Shown here: one piece after another, positions 16,104 through 37,432 of the stretch
Position numbering within the stretch: the stretch's first letter is position 1
Layout: each line of letters opens with the position of its first letter
Assembly: GCA_028288925.1 (NCBI GenBank)
Contig: JAQGHG010000019.1
Coordinates: forward strand, 136,047-176,940
DNA length: 40,894 bases
Reading direction: 5' to 3'
From: Patescibacteria group bacterium
GTDB taxonomy: Bacteria; Patescibacteriota; Saccharimonadia; UBA4664
Position numbers and translations under genes: made by a program
Notes under the pieces: model-generated
Database searches by the model: none
What the model was told of the DNA's origin: nothing
The model's input: the letters and a program-made list of their open reading frames with translations, nothing else

Positions 16104-16613
16104 TTATCTGGGCACCGACTGCAACCAACCGGGCGCATTCGCCTGCCAATACAAGCTAGAGTAAGGATACCGCTTCACATCCGCGATGAGAACTTTGGGA
16201 TTCTGATGAATATACTGCTCCGCTTGATACAACTGCTCATCATCCCGCATTCTCACAGCCTTATACGAATCCTGGAATAAACTGCCGATTCGATCATACC
16301 GATGGTTAAAGTACCGCACATAGCTCGTACTCAAACAACGCATAAGACTCTCGATCCCTCGTTCACTCATCTGACGCACCAACAAATGAAAATGGTTTGG
16401 CATCAGACAGTACGCGGCCAGCTCAATCTGGTCCGAAAGATCCTTGTGAGGCCTCGCCCACGGTTCAGCCGGCAGCAAATATTGCTTGAGATAGCCCATA
16501 AACGCCCGATAGTCTCTATCATCCATAAACACCCGCCGCTTCTCCACCCCTCGGTTATAGAGGTGATAATAGTCACCCGCTACATACTGTTTGATGCTAT
16601 TTCTACTCGGCAT
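16104..16613 (-). mobile_element. REP-associated tyrosine transposase (RAYT, Y1_Tnp / HUH)
   Basis: YYHLYNRGVEKRRVF...YCLMPNHFHLLVRQMSERGIESLMRCLSTSYVRYFNHRYDRIGSLFQ; HxH motif plus downstream Tyr intact. Confidence 0.9.
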
Positions 16614-16619
16614 GCTTTG

Positions 16620-16648
16620 AATATACCGAACAAGGAACGAACATGCAA
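16620..16648 (-). promoter_or_regulatory. predicted RAYT promoter TTGCAT-17nt-TATATT, 6 nt before ATG
   Basis: Read by eye on minus strand. Confidence 0.55.
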
Positions 16649-16673
16649 TTCGAAAAGGGCGGATCTTCGTCCA

Positions 16674-16734
16674 AGGAGCCTCCTCTCCGAAGGAGGCTCC
16701 TGAGCCAGGGAGGCTCCCGGCTCGGGGAGCCTCC
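16674..16734. repeat. REP/BIME-like pair of hairpins with four mutually complementary arms
   Basis: AGGAGCCTCCT-CTCCGA-AGGAGGCTCCT (16674-16701, 11-bp stem) and GGAGGCTCCC-GGCTCG-GGGAGCCTCC (16709-16734, 10-bp stem), between RNase J stop and RAYT. Confidence 0.75.
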
Positions 16735-16739
16735 TCAGC

Positions 16740-22673: not shown

Positions 22674-22761
22674 GGGATCGCCCTAAGACATCGATTCAAT
22701 AGTTCGATAACTTGGGGCGATCCCGCCGACCGGCGCGCAATGAAGCACGCGTCGGTCGGCG
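22674..22761. repeat. two contiguous long hairpins downstream of the DUF5999-like gene
   Basis: GGGATCGCCC...GGGCGATCCC (22674-22724, with inner ATCGA/TCGAT) and GCCGACCGGCGCG...CGCGTCGGTCGGC (22725-22761, 13-bp stem with one G.T). Confidence 0.75.
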
Positions 22762-22784: not shown

Positions 22785-22988
22785 TTAGGCCGCCGACGGA
22801 ACCAGTTGGTCCGTGGGCCGGTGGGGAGCGATGACTCTGCCGTCGGGCAGAATCTCCCCGGTGTCGTCGAAGCGGACGACGCCATTGCACAAAAGGCCCC
22901 ATCCCTGCTCGGGGTGGTAGGCAATCGTGCGAGCCGCATGGCGGCTGGGAGTGTCGGAGGACGGGCAGGGGGGCTGGTGCGGGCACAT
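22785..22988 (-). CDS. DUF5999-like small actinobacterial-type protein
   Basis: MCPHQPPCPSSDTPSRHAARTIAYHPEQGWGLLCNGVVRFDDTGEILPDGRVIAPHRPTDQLVPSAA; start at 22988 with SD AGGAGA. Family recognised from memory (CxHQPPCP...HPEQGWSLLCNGVVxFxDTGELLPDGxxIAPHRP). Confidence 0.8.
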   Translation of the reverse strand: MCPHQPPCPSSDTPSRHAARTIAYHPEQGWGLLCNGVVRFDDTGEILPDGRVIAPHRPTDQLVPSAA

Positions 22989-23223: not shown

Positions 23224-23252
23224 ACTATACTACAAACAACAAAGAAAGTCAA
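23224..23252 (-). promoter_or_regulatory. predicted sigma70-type promoter TTGACT-17nt-TATAGT driving the DUF5999-like gene
   Basis: Near-consensus boxes with 17-nt spacer; leaves a ~230-nt 5' leader. Confidence 0.6.
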
Positions 23253-23318
23253 TAAGTCTTGGTTATTATTGATAAACTTCTACGCATAACTATACGCTTC
23301 TTTTGTAGAATATGTGCG

Positions 23319-33188: not shown

Positions 33189-34790
33189 CTACTTAGATAC
33201 CGCTACCGACTGAGCCCGCTCGCCTATACTTATCGGGTATACGCCGTCAAAACACGAGGTCGAGAGCTTGCTCTTGGGCCAGCCCGTCGCCCGCACCATG
33301 CCTTCGTAAGACAAGTATCCCAGCGACTCGGCGCCAATATGCTGGCGAATCTCCTCCACGCTCAAACGCGAAGCAATTAAATCATCCGGATTTGGGGTAT
33401 TAATACCATAAAAATCCGGGAATTTGACCGGCGGCGAGCTCACCAGCACATGCACCTTCCGCGCTCCGGCGCCATAGAGCATGTCCACCAACTGCATTGT
33501 GGTAGTCCCGCGCACGATCGAGTCATCCACCACTACCACGTCCTTGCCCATCACCACTTCCGGCACCGGGTTGAGCTTGGTCTTCACGTCACGCTCGCGC
33601 ATTACCTGCGTGGGCCGGATAAACGTGCGGTGGATGTAGCGGTTTTTAATAAAACCATGGTCAAACCGGATCCCCGTTGCCTCGGCGTACCCCAGCGCCG
33701 CCGGAATAGCCGAATCCGGCACCGGAATTACCACATCGGCCTTGAGCGGAAATTCTTTGGCCAAATTCTTGCCCAGCTGCCGCCGTACCTCATTGACTTT
33801 GCGCCCCATCACCATGCTATCCGGCCGGGCAAAATACACGTATTCAAACACGTCCAAGGCCGTCCGGCTCTTTACCACCTGGCGGCTCTTTACGCCCATC
33901 GCCGAGATTGTCACCAGCTCGCCGGGCTTAATATCGCGCAGGAAAGCCGCCCCCACCGTGTCAAAGGCGCACGTCTCCGAGGCGATCGCGAAGCCGTCCT
34001 CCAGCCGCCCCAGTGACAACGGCCGGATACCGCACTCGTCCCGGAAGCCCACCACCGTGGTAGCGTCCATCGCCACACACGAAAAAGCCCCTGTAAACAG
34101 AGGCCACGCCGCTTCAATCGACTCCGCCAACGACTTACCGTGCCGGATGTAGTAGGCGATCGCCGCCACCATCATCCCCGAGTCATTCAAGCCACCATGC
34201 GCGATATGCTGCTTGGTCAAAAACTGCTCCAGCGCCGTCGTCGACGGCAAGTTCCCGTTATGCGCCAGCGCGAAACCACCCTCTTCATGCAATATCGGTT
34301 GCACATGCGCGCCGCCTCCCGCGCCCGAAGTCGAATACCGGTTGTGGCCGATCGCCATGTGCCCCTTCAGCCGGTCCAGATCCTCCGGCGCGTACACGTG
34401 CGCCACCAATCCCGGGCCGGCATGTCGCAACAATCGCGTCCCATTCGAGCTCACAATCCCCGAACCTTCCTGTCCCCGGTGCTGCAGCGCCCACAAGCCA
34501 TAATACGTCAGCCGCTGCGCGTAACGACTAGCCGTAAAAGCCCCAAATACCCCGCATTTCTCGTTCAGCTCTCCCAAGCACTCCCCCTCACGATCTAGTG
34601 ATTCTTCACCTTTATGGTACGTCGGGATAGGAGATCGGGCAACCCAACCTGAAGGCTCAAGGTACTGCTGTGGTTTGCGGCGTTGAGCGTCATTTTGTCG
34701 TTTCTCACGACCAAATGGCAGGAGAAGAATCGCCACCACAACCCGAAAAAGGCCCTCTCCCATTACAGGATGTTTTCTGAAGCCAAACAA
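33189..34790 (-). CDS. purF: amidophosphoribosyltransferase (true start probably internal, near ELNEKCGVFGAF)
   Basis: ELNEKCGVFGAF; GHNRYSTSGAGG; VVVVDDSIVRGTTTMQLVDMLYGAGARKVHV. Confidence 0.95.
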   Translation of the reverse strand: MFGFRKHPVMGEGLFRVVVAILLLPFGREKRQNDAQRRKPQQYLEPSGWVARSPIPTYHKGEESLDREGECLGELNEKCGVFGAFTASRYAQRLTYYGLWALQHRGQEGSGIVSSNGTRLLRHAGPGLVAHVYAPEDLDRLKGHMAIGHNRYSTSGAGGGAHVQPILHEEGGFALAHNGNLPSTTALEQFLTKQHIAHGGLNDSGMMVAAIAYYIRHGKSLAESIEAAWPLFTGAFSCVAMDATTVVGFRDECGIRPLSLGRLEDGFAIASETCAFDTVGAAFLRDIKPGELVTISAMGVKSRQVVKSRTALDVFEYVYFARPDSMVMGRKVNEVRRQLGKNLAKEFPLKADVVIPVPDSAIPAALGYAEATGIRFDHGFIKNRYIHRTFIRPTQVMRERDVKTKLNPVPEVVMGKDVVVVDDSIVRGTTTMQLVDMLYGAGARKVHVLVSSPPVKFPDFYGINTPNPDDLIASRLSVEEIRQHIGAESLGYLSYEGMVRATGWPKSKLSTSCFDGVYPISIGERAQSVAVSK

Positions 34791-34821: not shown

Positions 34822-35160
34822 TTACGGGAGGGTTGTGAAGTGAGGGTGGGTCAGATCAAGAACCATGCCCGTGGACAACCGATCCTCGCGCAAATTCCAT
34901 AGCATAGCCAAAAACTGCTCTTTTTCCGCTTCGTCGCGGAAACGACGGCCAGCCTCTGTAATACAAGCAAGCTCTTGCTCATCCGCCGCCGCGATTACCT
35001 CGTGCCAAGCCGCCGCCGTTTCTTCGCTCAATTCCTCCACAGGCACACCCGCTACCGCTTCGATGGCAAGGGTATTGGATTCTGCGCGAAGGGCAATGTA
35101 ATCAAAGTGACCCTTTTGGGTCTCTGCCTCGGAACCAGATTGTGGCCCATGTTCACTCAT
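34822..35160 (-). CDS. hypothetical protein
   Basis: 112-aa ORF, ATG 6 nt after TATGAT (35167-35172). Confidence 0.6.
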   Translation of the reverse strand: MSEHGPQSGSEAETQKGHFDYIALRAESNTLAIEAVAGVPVEELSEETAAAWHEVIAAADEQELACITEAGRRFRDEAEKEQFLAMLWNLREDRLSTGMVLDLTHPHFTTLP

Positions 35161-35199
35161 GGCGTAATCATACCAAAAGAGACCCCTCTGCGCTCAACT

Positions 35200-35274
35200 C
35201 AGCCTGAATTCTCGAACCTAGGCTCCAGAATTCGGGTTGGGTCTCCGCCCCGCGCGCAAGGGCACGGGGCGGAG
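35200..35274. repeat. two-hairpin intergenic element, copy A
   Basis: CAGCCTGAA - hairpin GAATTCT..AGAATTC - TCGGGTTGGG - hairpin CTCCGCCCCG..CGGGGCGGAG. Confidence 0.65.
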
Positions 35275-35444
35275 AGGCGAGCGACAGATTCTAGAATGGA
35301 CACTGTCACCTTTCAAACCTTCGGCCATACTGGCCAGAGAGACTCGCGGCTTTCGCCTTGAATCGTTCGCGGGCGCGCCTACACCCTGCTCTTGGAGCAA
35401 GCTGGCGCTACCCAGCCATCCATTTGCCCCTTGGCGAAGCTTGG

Positions 35445-36179
35445 TCAATAGCGAAGGCTACGCCACTCATTGGCCGCCCAAGTGCGGACGTCCGGACCCA
35501 TGGCTGGTGCTGAGTAGTCGACCAAGGCCCTTCTGAGCGTGCGATTTGTCGCACACCCAATCAGGTCTTGGACCTGCTCTCTGTTGGCTGGGCCCGACTG
35601 GAGGAGCCAGTCGAGCAGCTCCTCCTTTGTGCAGGCCATCGCGGTCTTGGTCCACGTGTAGCAGACCTTGCTTCCGGGGTCGTCTGCGAACAGCAGGTCA
35701 GTTACGTGCCATGTTCCACCGTCCACAATCGGACGGTCGAACGACCGCTGCCGTAGAAACTCTACAGCCGTCCCAGCTGTAAGTATGACCCAGCCGACCA
35801 TCAAGTCCGGGCTATGAGCAAAGCTCACGACCCGCTCACTTACGTTGGCGATCAGCCCAGGTCGCGCCGCGACCTCTGCCTGCCTTTTCTGGTAATGAGG
35901 GCTTTCGCCCCTCACCTGAGTGCAGACAGCCCAGTCTGGCTCAGTGCCCGCCCTGGCTGCGGCGACGAAAAGTTCAGCCAGGCCGTCGCCCTCTGCGAAG
36001 AAAAACCTTCCAGCGTACCCAGGGTTCTCACAGGAACCCCAGACGACCTGGGAGCCATCCTCCAGAATGAAGGTAGTACGACCCAAGCCACCCCCTTCAA
36101 ACTCATGGAAGCGCACAACGAAACCATGTTCGCGGAATTCCGCCGCGACGATCTCGGAGTCATGCCAGTTCTTTTGCAT
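35445..36179 (-). CDS. hypothetical protein (no recognised domain)
   Basis: Start re-assigned to MQKNWHDSEIV at 36179 with SD GAGGAG. Confidence 0.6.
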   Translation of the reverse strand: MQKNWHDSEIVAAEFREHGFVVRFHEFEGGGLGRTTFILEDGSQVVWGSCENPGYAGRFFFAEGDGLAELFVAAARAGTEPDWAVCTQVRGESPHYQKRQAEVAARPGLIANVSERVVSFAHSPDLMVGWVILTAGTAVEFLRQRSFDRPIVDGGTWHVTDLLFADDPGSKVCYTWTKTAMACTKEELLDWLLQSGPANREQVQDLIGCATNRTLRRALVDYSAPAMGPDVRTWAANEWRSLRY

Positions 36180-36325
36180 TTCTACTCCTCGAGCCACAGG
36201 CGGCCCCTTTGGCCACCCAATCCGATTCGGTAGACCGCGAGGAGTATGCAGCTTTAGCTGGTTATCTCCTTCCCGCCCAATGAGGGCAGTTGTAGTTGTC
36301 AAATTCCTGAAGCACACATTTGCCC

Positions 36326-36401
36326 CAGCCTGAAAGCTCAATTCTTTGATTGAGCACTCGGGTTGGGGTGGGAGCCCCGAGCCAAAGCTCGGAGTCCCAC
36401 C
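36326..36401. repeat. two-hairpin intergenic element, copy B
   Basis: CAGCCTGAA - hairpin GCTCAAT..ATTGAGC - TCGGGTTGGG - hairpin GGTGGGA..CCGAGC..GCTCGG..TCCCACC. Confidence 0.65.
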
Positions 36402-36453: not shown

Positions 36454-36984
36454 TTAAGCATCATCCCAGACGATGGCCTTGGACGAGTCCCTGTGGAGCC
36501 ACAGCAGGGGGATCTCCCCGTGCCAGTCCCCATAGTTCAACGCCATCGCCCCTCTGCGCCCGGACGTGGACACCACAGACGCGAAGAGGTGCGCCGTGTC
36601 GTCCTTTTGGAGGTCCACGATCTGCACCGTAGTACCCCTCCAGTCCAGCAGAGCGCCGTCCCGGATTAGACTCCTCAGTTCCCCCTCCGTGAAGGAGGTT
36701 GTGGAGAGGATCTCTCGCCGCCAGCAGTACACCTCCTCGCTACCGGAGCCGTCCTCCCAGATGAGGAGGTGATGTCCCTCCTGGGGGATGGCCTGACCAG
36801 GCCTGACCAAGTAGGTGCCTTGACCGCGGCGACTGAGCAACCACCGATTGGCGGCGCACCTGTTGTGGCCGGGGAGGCGTTTTCTGATCTCCCTTCTCGG
36901 GTTGACGGCCTTGCGGCCGGGCTGGGGGCGCCGTGAAGCGCAGAGTAGCACAGTGCCCTCAGCGGGGGTGCTGATCTGCAGCAT
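36454..36984 (-). CDS. hypothetical protein (no recognised domain)
   Basis: Start re-assigned to MLQISTPAEGTVLL at 36984 with SD CGGAGG and an upstream promoter. Confidence 0.55.
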   Translation of the reverse strand: MLQISTPAEGTVLLCASRRPQPGRKAVNPRREIRKRLPGHNRCAANRWLLSRRGQGTYLVRPGQAIPQEGHHLLIWEDGSGSEEVYCWRREILSTTSFTEGELRSLIRDGALLDWRGTTVQIVDLQKDDTAHLFASVVSTSGRRGAMALNYGDWHGEIPLLWLHRDSSKAIVWDDA

Positions 36985-37087: not shown

Positions 37088-37204
37088 TGTCAATAATCGG
37101 GCGAGTTCGTCCCTAAATAGCGAGCTAATCCAGCCGCGTGGCACTCTTGCATGTTCGCTTTTTGTTCACTATTATCAATCTGTCAGCCAAATATACTTAA
37201 GATC

Positions 37205-37432
37205 ATGAAGGCAACCATGACGCTCACAACCCAAGACCTCCACGCGATTAGAGGCATCGTAACGGATACCATAAAGGAAACCGTCCCATCCATCGTCGAC
37301 TCTGCAGTCGGCAAGGCAATTGACGAGCTGTCACTCCAAGTTGGCGCCAGCTTTAATGAAATGACCGAACGGTTTGAGGGTATCGAAGCCGATATAACTG
37401 AGTTCAAAACCGACATGCACGAGGTCAAATAG
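37205..37432 (+). CDS. small coiled-coil-like protein, apparently ended by an in-frame TAG (frame stays open to 37513)
   Basis: MKATMTLTTQDLHAIRGIVTDTIKETVPSIVDSAVGKAIDELSLQVGASFNEMTERFEGIEADITEFKTDMHEVK*HLTDTVRRSKFTDLRQYLDYIRRNRN*; ATG 7 nt after TATACT. Confidence 0.6.
   Translation: MKATMTLTTQDLHAIRGIVTDTIKETVPSIVDSAVGKAIDELSLQVGASFNEMTERFEGIEADITEFKTDMHEVK

Follow-up and report, generated by a model that had tools for sequence, protein, structure and literature searches.

In integrons, tandem units of common orientation each consist of a single, mostly orphan gene and, after it, a folded site whose base is conserved and whose apex varies, the sites within a genome resemble one another, and the end of the site is the boundary of the unit. 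Recombination of these attC sites is described as proceeding through the bottom strand only (PMC2727003). Folded elements at gene ends may also be transcriptional, as adjacent (V-shaped) and clustered hairpins lacking poly-U are known as terminators (PMC8355165), and the REP/BIME elements of RAYT (Y1) transposases are short intergenic palindromes that are sometimes paired. On integrons or gene cassettes in Saccharibacteria or Patescibacteria, we found nothing pertinent in the open-access literature.

The window (the whole stretch of 40,894 nucleotides analyzed here) holds three copies of an element that shares traits with each of these systems. At copies 1 and 2, the plus strand carries a long hairpin, A, and then directly a second hairpin, B (35197-35274 and 36323-36401). 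The copies and the genes around them are as follows.

22674 to 22724, plus strand: hairpin A of copy 3 (GGGATCGCCCTAAG ... CTTGGGGCGATCCC), from a structure-only scan and a match to covariance model R2 (E=4.6e-6)
22725 to 22760, minus strand: hairpin B of copy 3 (GCCGACCGGCGCG ... CGCGTCGGTCGGC), from the structure-only scan and an energy comparison
22785 to 22988, minus strand: gene of unit 3, 67 aa, DUF5999 (PF19462, Pfam E=2.5e-32), actinomycete-type
23224 to 23253, minus strand: promoter-like site of unit 3 (TTGACT-18-TATAGT), a consensus match only, read directly from the sequence
34822 to 35160, minus strand: orphan gene of 112 aa directly outside the outer end of copy 1, with no B-A element of its own seen
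35197 to 35242, plus strand: hairpin A of copy 1 (ACTCAGCCTGAATTCT ... AGAATTCGGGTTGGGT, 16 bp), from folding, matches to models R1 and R2 and the structure-only scan
35243 to 35274, minus strand: hairpin B of copy 1 (CTCCGCCCCG ... CGGGGCGGAG), 3' of gene 1, from folding and the structure-only scan
35445 to 36179, minus strand: gene of unit 1, 244 aa, orphan, with no Pfam match and none on plasmids
36323 to 36368, plus strand: hairpin A of copy 2 (CCCCAGCCTGA-AA-GCTCAAT ... ATTGAGC-AC-TCGGGTTGGGG), from folding and R1 and R2 matches
36367 to 36401, minus strand: hairpin B of copy 2 (GGTGGGA..CCGAGC / GCTCGG..TCCCACC), from folding, its first 2 nt overlapping the base of A
36454 to 36984, minus strand: gene of unit 2, 176 aa, orphan, with no Pfam match and no match in plasmid or phage records
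37059 to 37087, minus strand: promoter-like site of unit 2 (TTGACA-17-TATGGT), a consensus match only

An initial annotation of this DNA had placed two copies in the purF-rpoD island, and both lie precisely where it put them; its count fell one short, as the structure-only scan revealed copy 3 at 22674-22760. The sequences it read as conserved linkers are real but are not unpaired, since CAGCCTGA and TCGGGTTG form the two arms of the hairpin A stem (pairs C-G, A-U, G-U, C-G, C-G, U-G, G-C, A-U). This pairing extends outward through ACTCAGCC/GGTTGGGT in copy 1 and CCCCAGCC/GGTTGGGG in copy 2, with one A-U to C-G exchange between them. The AT-rich hairpin it described is likewise present, but only as the inner part of hairpin A, whose stem of 16 to 18 bp includes G-U pairs on the plus strand and is followed by hairpin B after about 0 to 1 nt in copies 1 and 2. 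The window has two instances of the spaced pattern CAGCCTGAA-N15-35-CGGGTTGGG, and 100 dinucleotide shuffles have none; a near-match, TCAGGTTGGG, at 34643 on the minus strand lacks the double hairpin. Folded as RNA, the plus strands of copies 1 and 2 reach -55.1 and -50.6 kcal/mol; relative to dinucleotide shuffles, z is -6.05 and -6.97 for these strands and -4.7 and -4.8 for the minus strands. A model-free scan for two adjacent strong hairpins across 404 kb of the window's own genome returned four places, three of them the A-B element, and none in shuffled sequence; the fourth adjoins a Y1 transposase.

Beyond the window, one further copy came from a pattern search of 61 relatives; it lies in G001, a genome of another genus in the same family. 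When the exact CAGCCTGAA/TCGGGTTGGG form was sought in 85,000 species, 62 of the 63 pattern matches failed the hairpin test, and the sole real element lies on JACAFG010000003.1 of Candidatus Saccharibacteria bacterium G2_22, the contig of the G001 copy. Covariance models of hairpin A reached further. R1, built from three copies, matched copies in the same family and order as the window genome, and R2, built from 24 copies and spanning under 50 positions, matched 24 of the 393 class genomes and 16 of the 384 in a phylum sample. Six of seven own-family genomes have 2 to 11 R2 matches each, some of which are both strands of one place, and some of the single weak matches outside the family will be due to chance at these E-values. 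The distribution is patchy, covering the element's own family and then sporadic members of the class and phylum.

These copies provide evidence that the fold is under selection. In the alignment of 24 copies of hairpin A, all picked by a model that already contained the structure, 88.4% of cells were paired, compared with 74% in shuffles and 22 to 46% when the alignment was slid, and 14 of 18 pairs had changes on both sides (57 such cells versus 17.7 in shuffles). Because a structure-bearing model selected these matches, hairpin B, which is absent from the model, serves as the cleaner test. In 48 of 69 model matches (30 of 35 in f1 genomes), a hairpin B lies to the right of A, compared with 5 of 69 to the left and 4.1% at random positions. 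It starts between -1 and +3 nt from A and has stems of 9 to 19 bp, and its sequence is unconserved. Hairpin A has a symmetric 2x2 internal loop in the 24 aligned copies and a conserved sequence, CC-T-R-A ... CTTGGG, with nearly invariant positions across 48 copies; the element matches no curated Rfam model. One weak match, L207 (G006:C17:55373), has a very strong hairpin to the left of A rather than the right; this is a palindrome due to chance or else an inversion of the arrangement. The covariation that the initial annotation had suspected thus holds across genomes, the search of CPR genomes with a covariance model that it had set as a test did find further copies, and together these back its view of a recurrent structured or protein-recognized element.

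The element is tied to the end of one particular gene. An opposite-strand gene stops 28 to 70 nt from A, just past B, at 41 of 69 matches, compared with 9 of 69 on the other side and 6% at random positions. One unknown gene per element, as first described, is supported, but rather than separating two genes the element belongs to the 3' end of the minus-strand gene to its right. Almost without exception, linked genes are GC-richer than their locus, and in 22 of 30 no Pfam match is convincing; the others include AIR-synthase-like proteins, OMP decarboxylase, phosphoribosyltransferase, MOSC, M23 peptidase and PG-binding proteins. All-against-all comparison of the linked genes gave only five similar pairs, and the unit 1 gene has a single marginal relative in 393 Saccharimonadia genomes (30% over 57 aa), which comes from G254 and lacks the element. 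Many units have, as read by eye, their own upstream promoter of the TTGACA-17-TANNNT type. In the AT-rich genome G604, four small GC-rich genes form an array (L209, 3370-6250) in which a repeated 5' leader (GGCCTTGGTAAAGAGTAGATTTAAGTCTTTTCTTTACTACGGCTAAA) is common to three genes, and two have a hairpin B with no recognizable A. At G010:C23 (L214) and G014:C7 (L219), unit promoters lie directly downstream of apparent tRNA gene 3' ends, suggesting that tRNA flanks are hot spots for units; no tRNA genes were found in the window.

The two hairpins also differ in the strand on which they pair best. On the A-to-B strand, antisense to the gene, the outer pairs of hairpin A include 32 G-T against 6 A-C, and the stems of hairpin B include 14 G-T against 32 A-C, meaning that B pairs better in the sense of the gene. 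Folding energies gave the same polarity, A being better on the antisense strand in 35 of 48 copies (p=0.002, partly biased by a model built on the A-to-B strand) and B on the sense strand in 26 of 40 (p = 0.08). In the three structure-only copies, which are free of model-selection bias, a hand count of hairpin A gave G-T 6 versus A-C 0. One copy, G295:896831, has a hairpin A that folds better on the sense strand, opposite to the majority.

Two gene families bear on a lateral origin. The unit 3 protein is a full-length DUF5999 member, 61 to 72% identical to Streptomyces and Nonomuraea proteins among the plasmid matches listed, and is clearly of actinomycete (Streptomyces) type. DUF5999 matched 146 records in the plasmid collection, all from actinomycetes, and none in phage records. 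The window gene differs from its actinomycete relatives in its B-A double hairpin and in a promoter-like site, TTGACT-TATAGT; in the six actinomycete DUF5999 loci inspected, no hairpin A is credible (the best R2 match in 7 kb has E = 0.064), and some of these loci have GC-rich hairpins near the stop. A second family, A7, with two genes in tandem in G295 and one in G277, has 6 homologues in 393 genomes spanning two GTDB families: four in G295, one in G277 and a truncated one in G001, a member of another family. Each of the six has B and an A-type hairpin after it; the A hairpin is degenerate in two, and three of the homologues were found by protein alone. The truncated copy (L234, G001:C8:1-560) is a 5'-truncated gene of the G295/G277 type; its promoter looks intact, and it retains hairpin B and a hairpin A that is degenerate.

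In three tandem pairs, the outer end of hairpin A coincides with the limit of shared sequence. In the tandem units of G005, common sequence runs from this end inward with nothing common outside, and inspection of the G295 and G604 tandem pairs likewise showed no similarity past it. In the window, the promoter-like -35 of the next unit begins 11 nt outside copy 3. Units with unrelated genes lie downstream of rpoD in G000, which has two, and in G006 and G003, and that flank is occupied by other DNA in G001, G004 and G005; no pair of empty and filled versions of a conserved site was found.

This wider evidence, going beyond the initial annotation, points to lateral acquisition and a cassette boundary. 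The reading we tentatively favor, at somewhat less than even confidence, is that the element is the 3'-terminal tag of laterally acquired, self-contained single-gene cassettes, with A as an attC-like boundary and B as a terminator hairpin. It draws on the fixed B-A geometry, the gene stop tens of nucleotides from B, orphan genes that are mostly unrelated, the patchy spread, the absence, between tandem units, of any likeness past A's outer end, and one gene clearly of actinomycete type. A unit would consist, in order, of its own promoter, a GC-rich gene, hairpin B and hairpin A. Hairpin B, which is GC-rich, would act in the transcript, on the sense strand, as terminator or 3'-end hairpin of the gene, and hairpin A would be recognized, like attC, in single-stranded folded form on the strand antisense to the gene, presumably by a recombinase or other strand-transferring enzyme. 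Entry would most likely be as single-stranded DNA through competence or conjugation. Saccharibacteria are described in one account as genetically manipulable epibionts of Actinobacteria (PMC10633639). It is conceivable, though we hold it with limited confidence, that Saccharibacteria and other Patescibacteria capture genes, plausibly from actinobacterial hosts, independently of an integron integrase, as single-gene cassettes ended by a folded antisense A joined to a terminator B.

The likeness to integrons lies in several traits: one gene and one site per unit, the site lying at the unit boundary, mostly orphan genes, a conserved base and variable apex, tandem units of common orientation with similar sites within a genome, and best folding on the strand antisense to the gene, the last partly a product of model-selection bias here. 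No integron integrase (IntI, TIGR02249) scored above the curated cutoff in 31 genomes, where only Xer-type matches appeared, and G003 and G006, which have many copies, returned a housekeeping Xer-type tyrosine recombinase alone; a distant integrase, or one lost with a missing contig, may have escaped this search. No attI was found, the attC core boxes RYYYAAC ... GTTRRRY were both present in just 4 of 48 copies with no R-box consensus, and the 24 aligned copies show no conserved bulge that would supply extrahelical bases in the stem. Because integrase, core boxes and extrahelical bases all fail, the element is not classed as an integron and we reject it as a true attC; cassette tag is a term that applies by analogy at most. 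Here, moreover, a second hairpin abuts the site, and units, often with promoters of their own, are for the most part scattered, in contrast to a single array.

The main rival, possible but rather doubtful in our estimation, is that the element is a noncanonical V-shaped bidirectional terminator or insulator that shields foreign genes from their neighbors, a polymerase leaving the gene meeting B first and one from the other side meeting A first. Position and polarity are explained by this candidate as well as by the cassette reading: the element lies 28 to 70 nt past stop codons, where hairpins are typical of terminators, it comprises two gapless hairpins (spacing near 0 in 48 of 69), and its polarity, with B optimized for the sense strand and A for the opposite one, fits exactly. 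The GC-rich hairpins near the stops of actinomycete DUF5999 genes also fit. A canonical intrinsic terminator of GC hairpin and U-tract is rejected, as the 9 nt after B contain on average 0.75 T in the gene sense, with a maximum of 3. Against the V-shaped form, too, stand this lack of a U-tract, beside the ordinary terminator of rpoD next door, and the conserved sequence of A, which termination does not need; the element differs from described V-shaped and clustered terminators in that conservation, in A pairing best on the opposite strand and in its restriction to a few accessory genes. With four double hairpins in 404 kb, the element is not the general terminator of the window genome, and this rarity and its confinement to acquired-looking genes are likewise left unexplained by the terminator reading.

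An unlikely alternative is a sense-strand RNA element in the mRNA 3' UTR that stabilizes or localizes transcripts of coregulated accessory genes. The element is always 3' of a gene, its sense-strand folds are strong too, and the common 5' leader of the G604 units is what a regulon would have. However, column pair 9-42 of hairpin A is U-G on the antisense strand in 20 of 24 copies and hence a C-A mismatch in mRNA, and this mismatch, together with the greater antisense stability of A and the lack of an Rfam family, argues against a simple mRNA element. A T-box or other known riboswitch was ruled out by the absence of an Rfam match.

That the element serves a REP/RAYT-type (Y1, IS200-like) transposase as its end or as a place to bind appears very improbable: G000 does encode Y1 transposases, one in the window at 16104-16613, but G001 and G005 (100% complete) are rich in elements with no Y1 match, and G004, with its three Y1 genes, lacks the element. 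Given this lack of co-occurrence, Y1 ends were rejected, and the element further differs from REP/BIME in being tied to the 3' end of one gene and in its sequence. The Y1 gene in the window is itself adjacent to a double hairpin at 16674-16739 (AGGAGCCTCC...GGAGGCTCCT), and this locus (16104-16739) looks like a RAYT with a REP pair, separate from the A-B element. Decayed duplication or chance hairpins can practically be dismissed, as the tandem units of G005 and G295 do encode paralogues but the double-sided changes across 24 copies exclude decayed duplicates lacking compensatory change, and covariation, fixed geometry and spread across families refute both.

If hairpin A is a recombination site, as the cassette reading proposes, Patescibacteria would have a cassette-style route of lateral acquisition that searches for integrases and attC boxes would miss. 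A model of the R2 type offers a handle for picking out accessory, foreign-looking genes in reduced genomes. Even as a terminator, a sequence-conserved double hairpin with halves optimized for opposite strands and confined to acquired genes would be unusual, and the element is readily testable in Saccharibacteria, which are reported to be cultivated and genetically tractable (PMC10633639).

Two further features of the island concern its edges. A plus-strand ORF of 93 aa (37151-37432) lies between unit 2 and rpoD and lacks relatives in the family's syntenic regions. At the other side, the purF ORF as called (33189-34790) starts about 67 codons too early in comparison with relatives, and its true start is probably near 34590.
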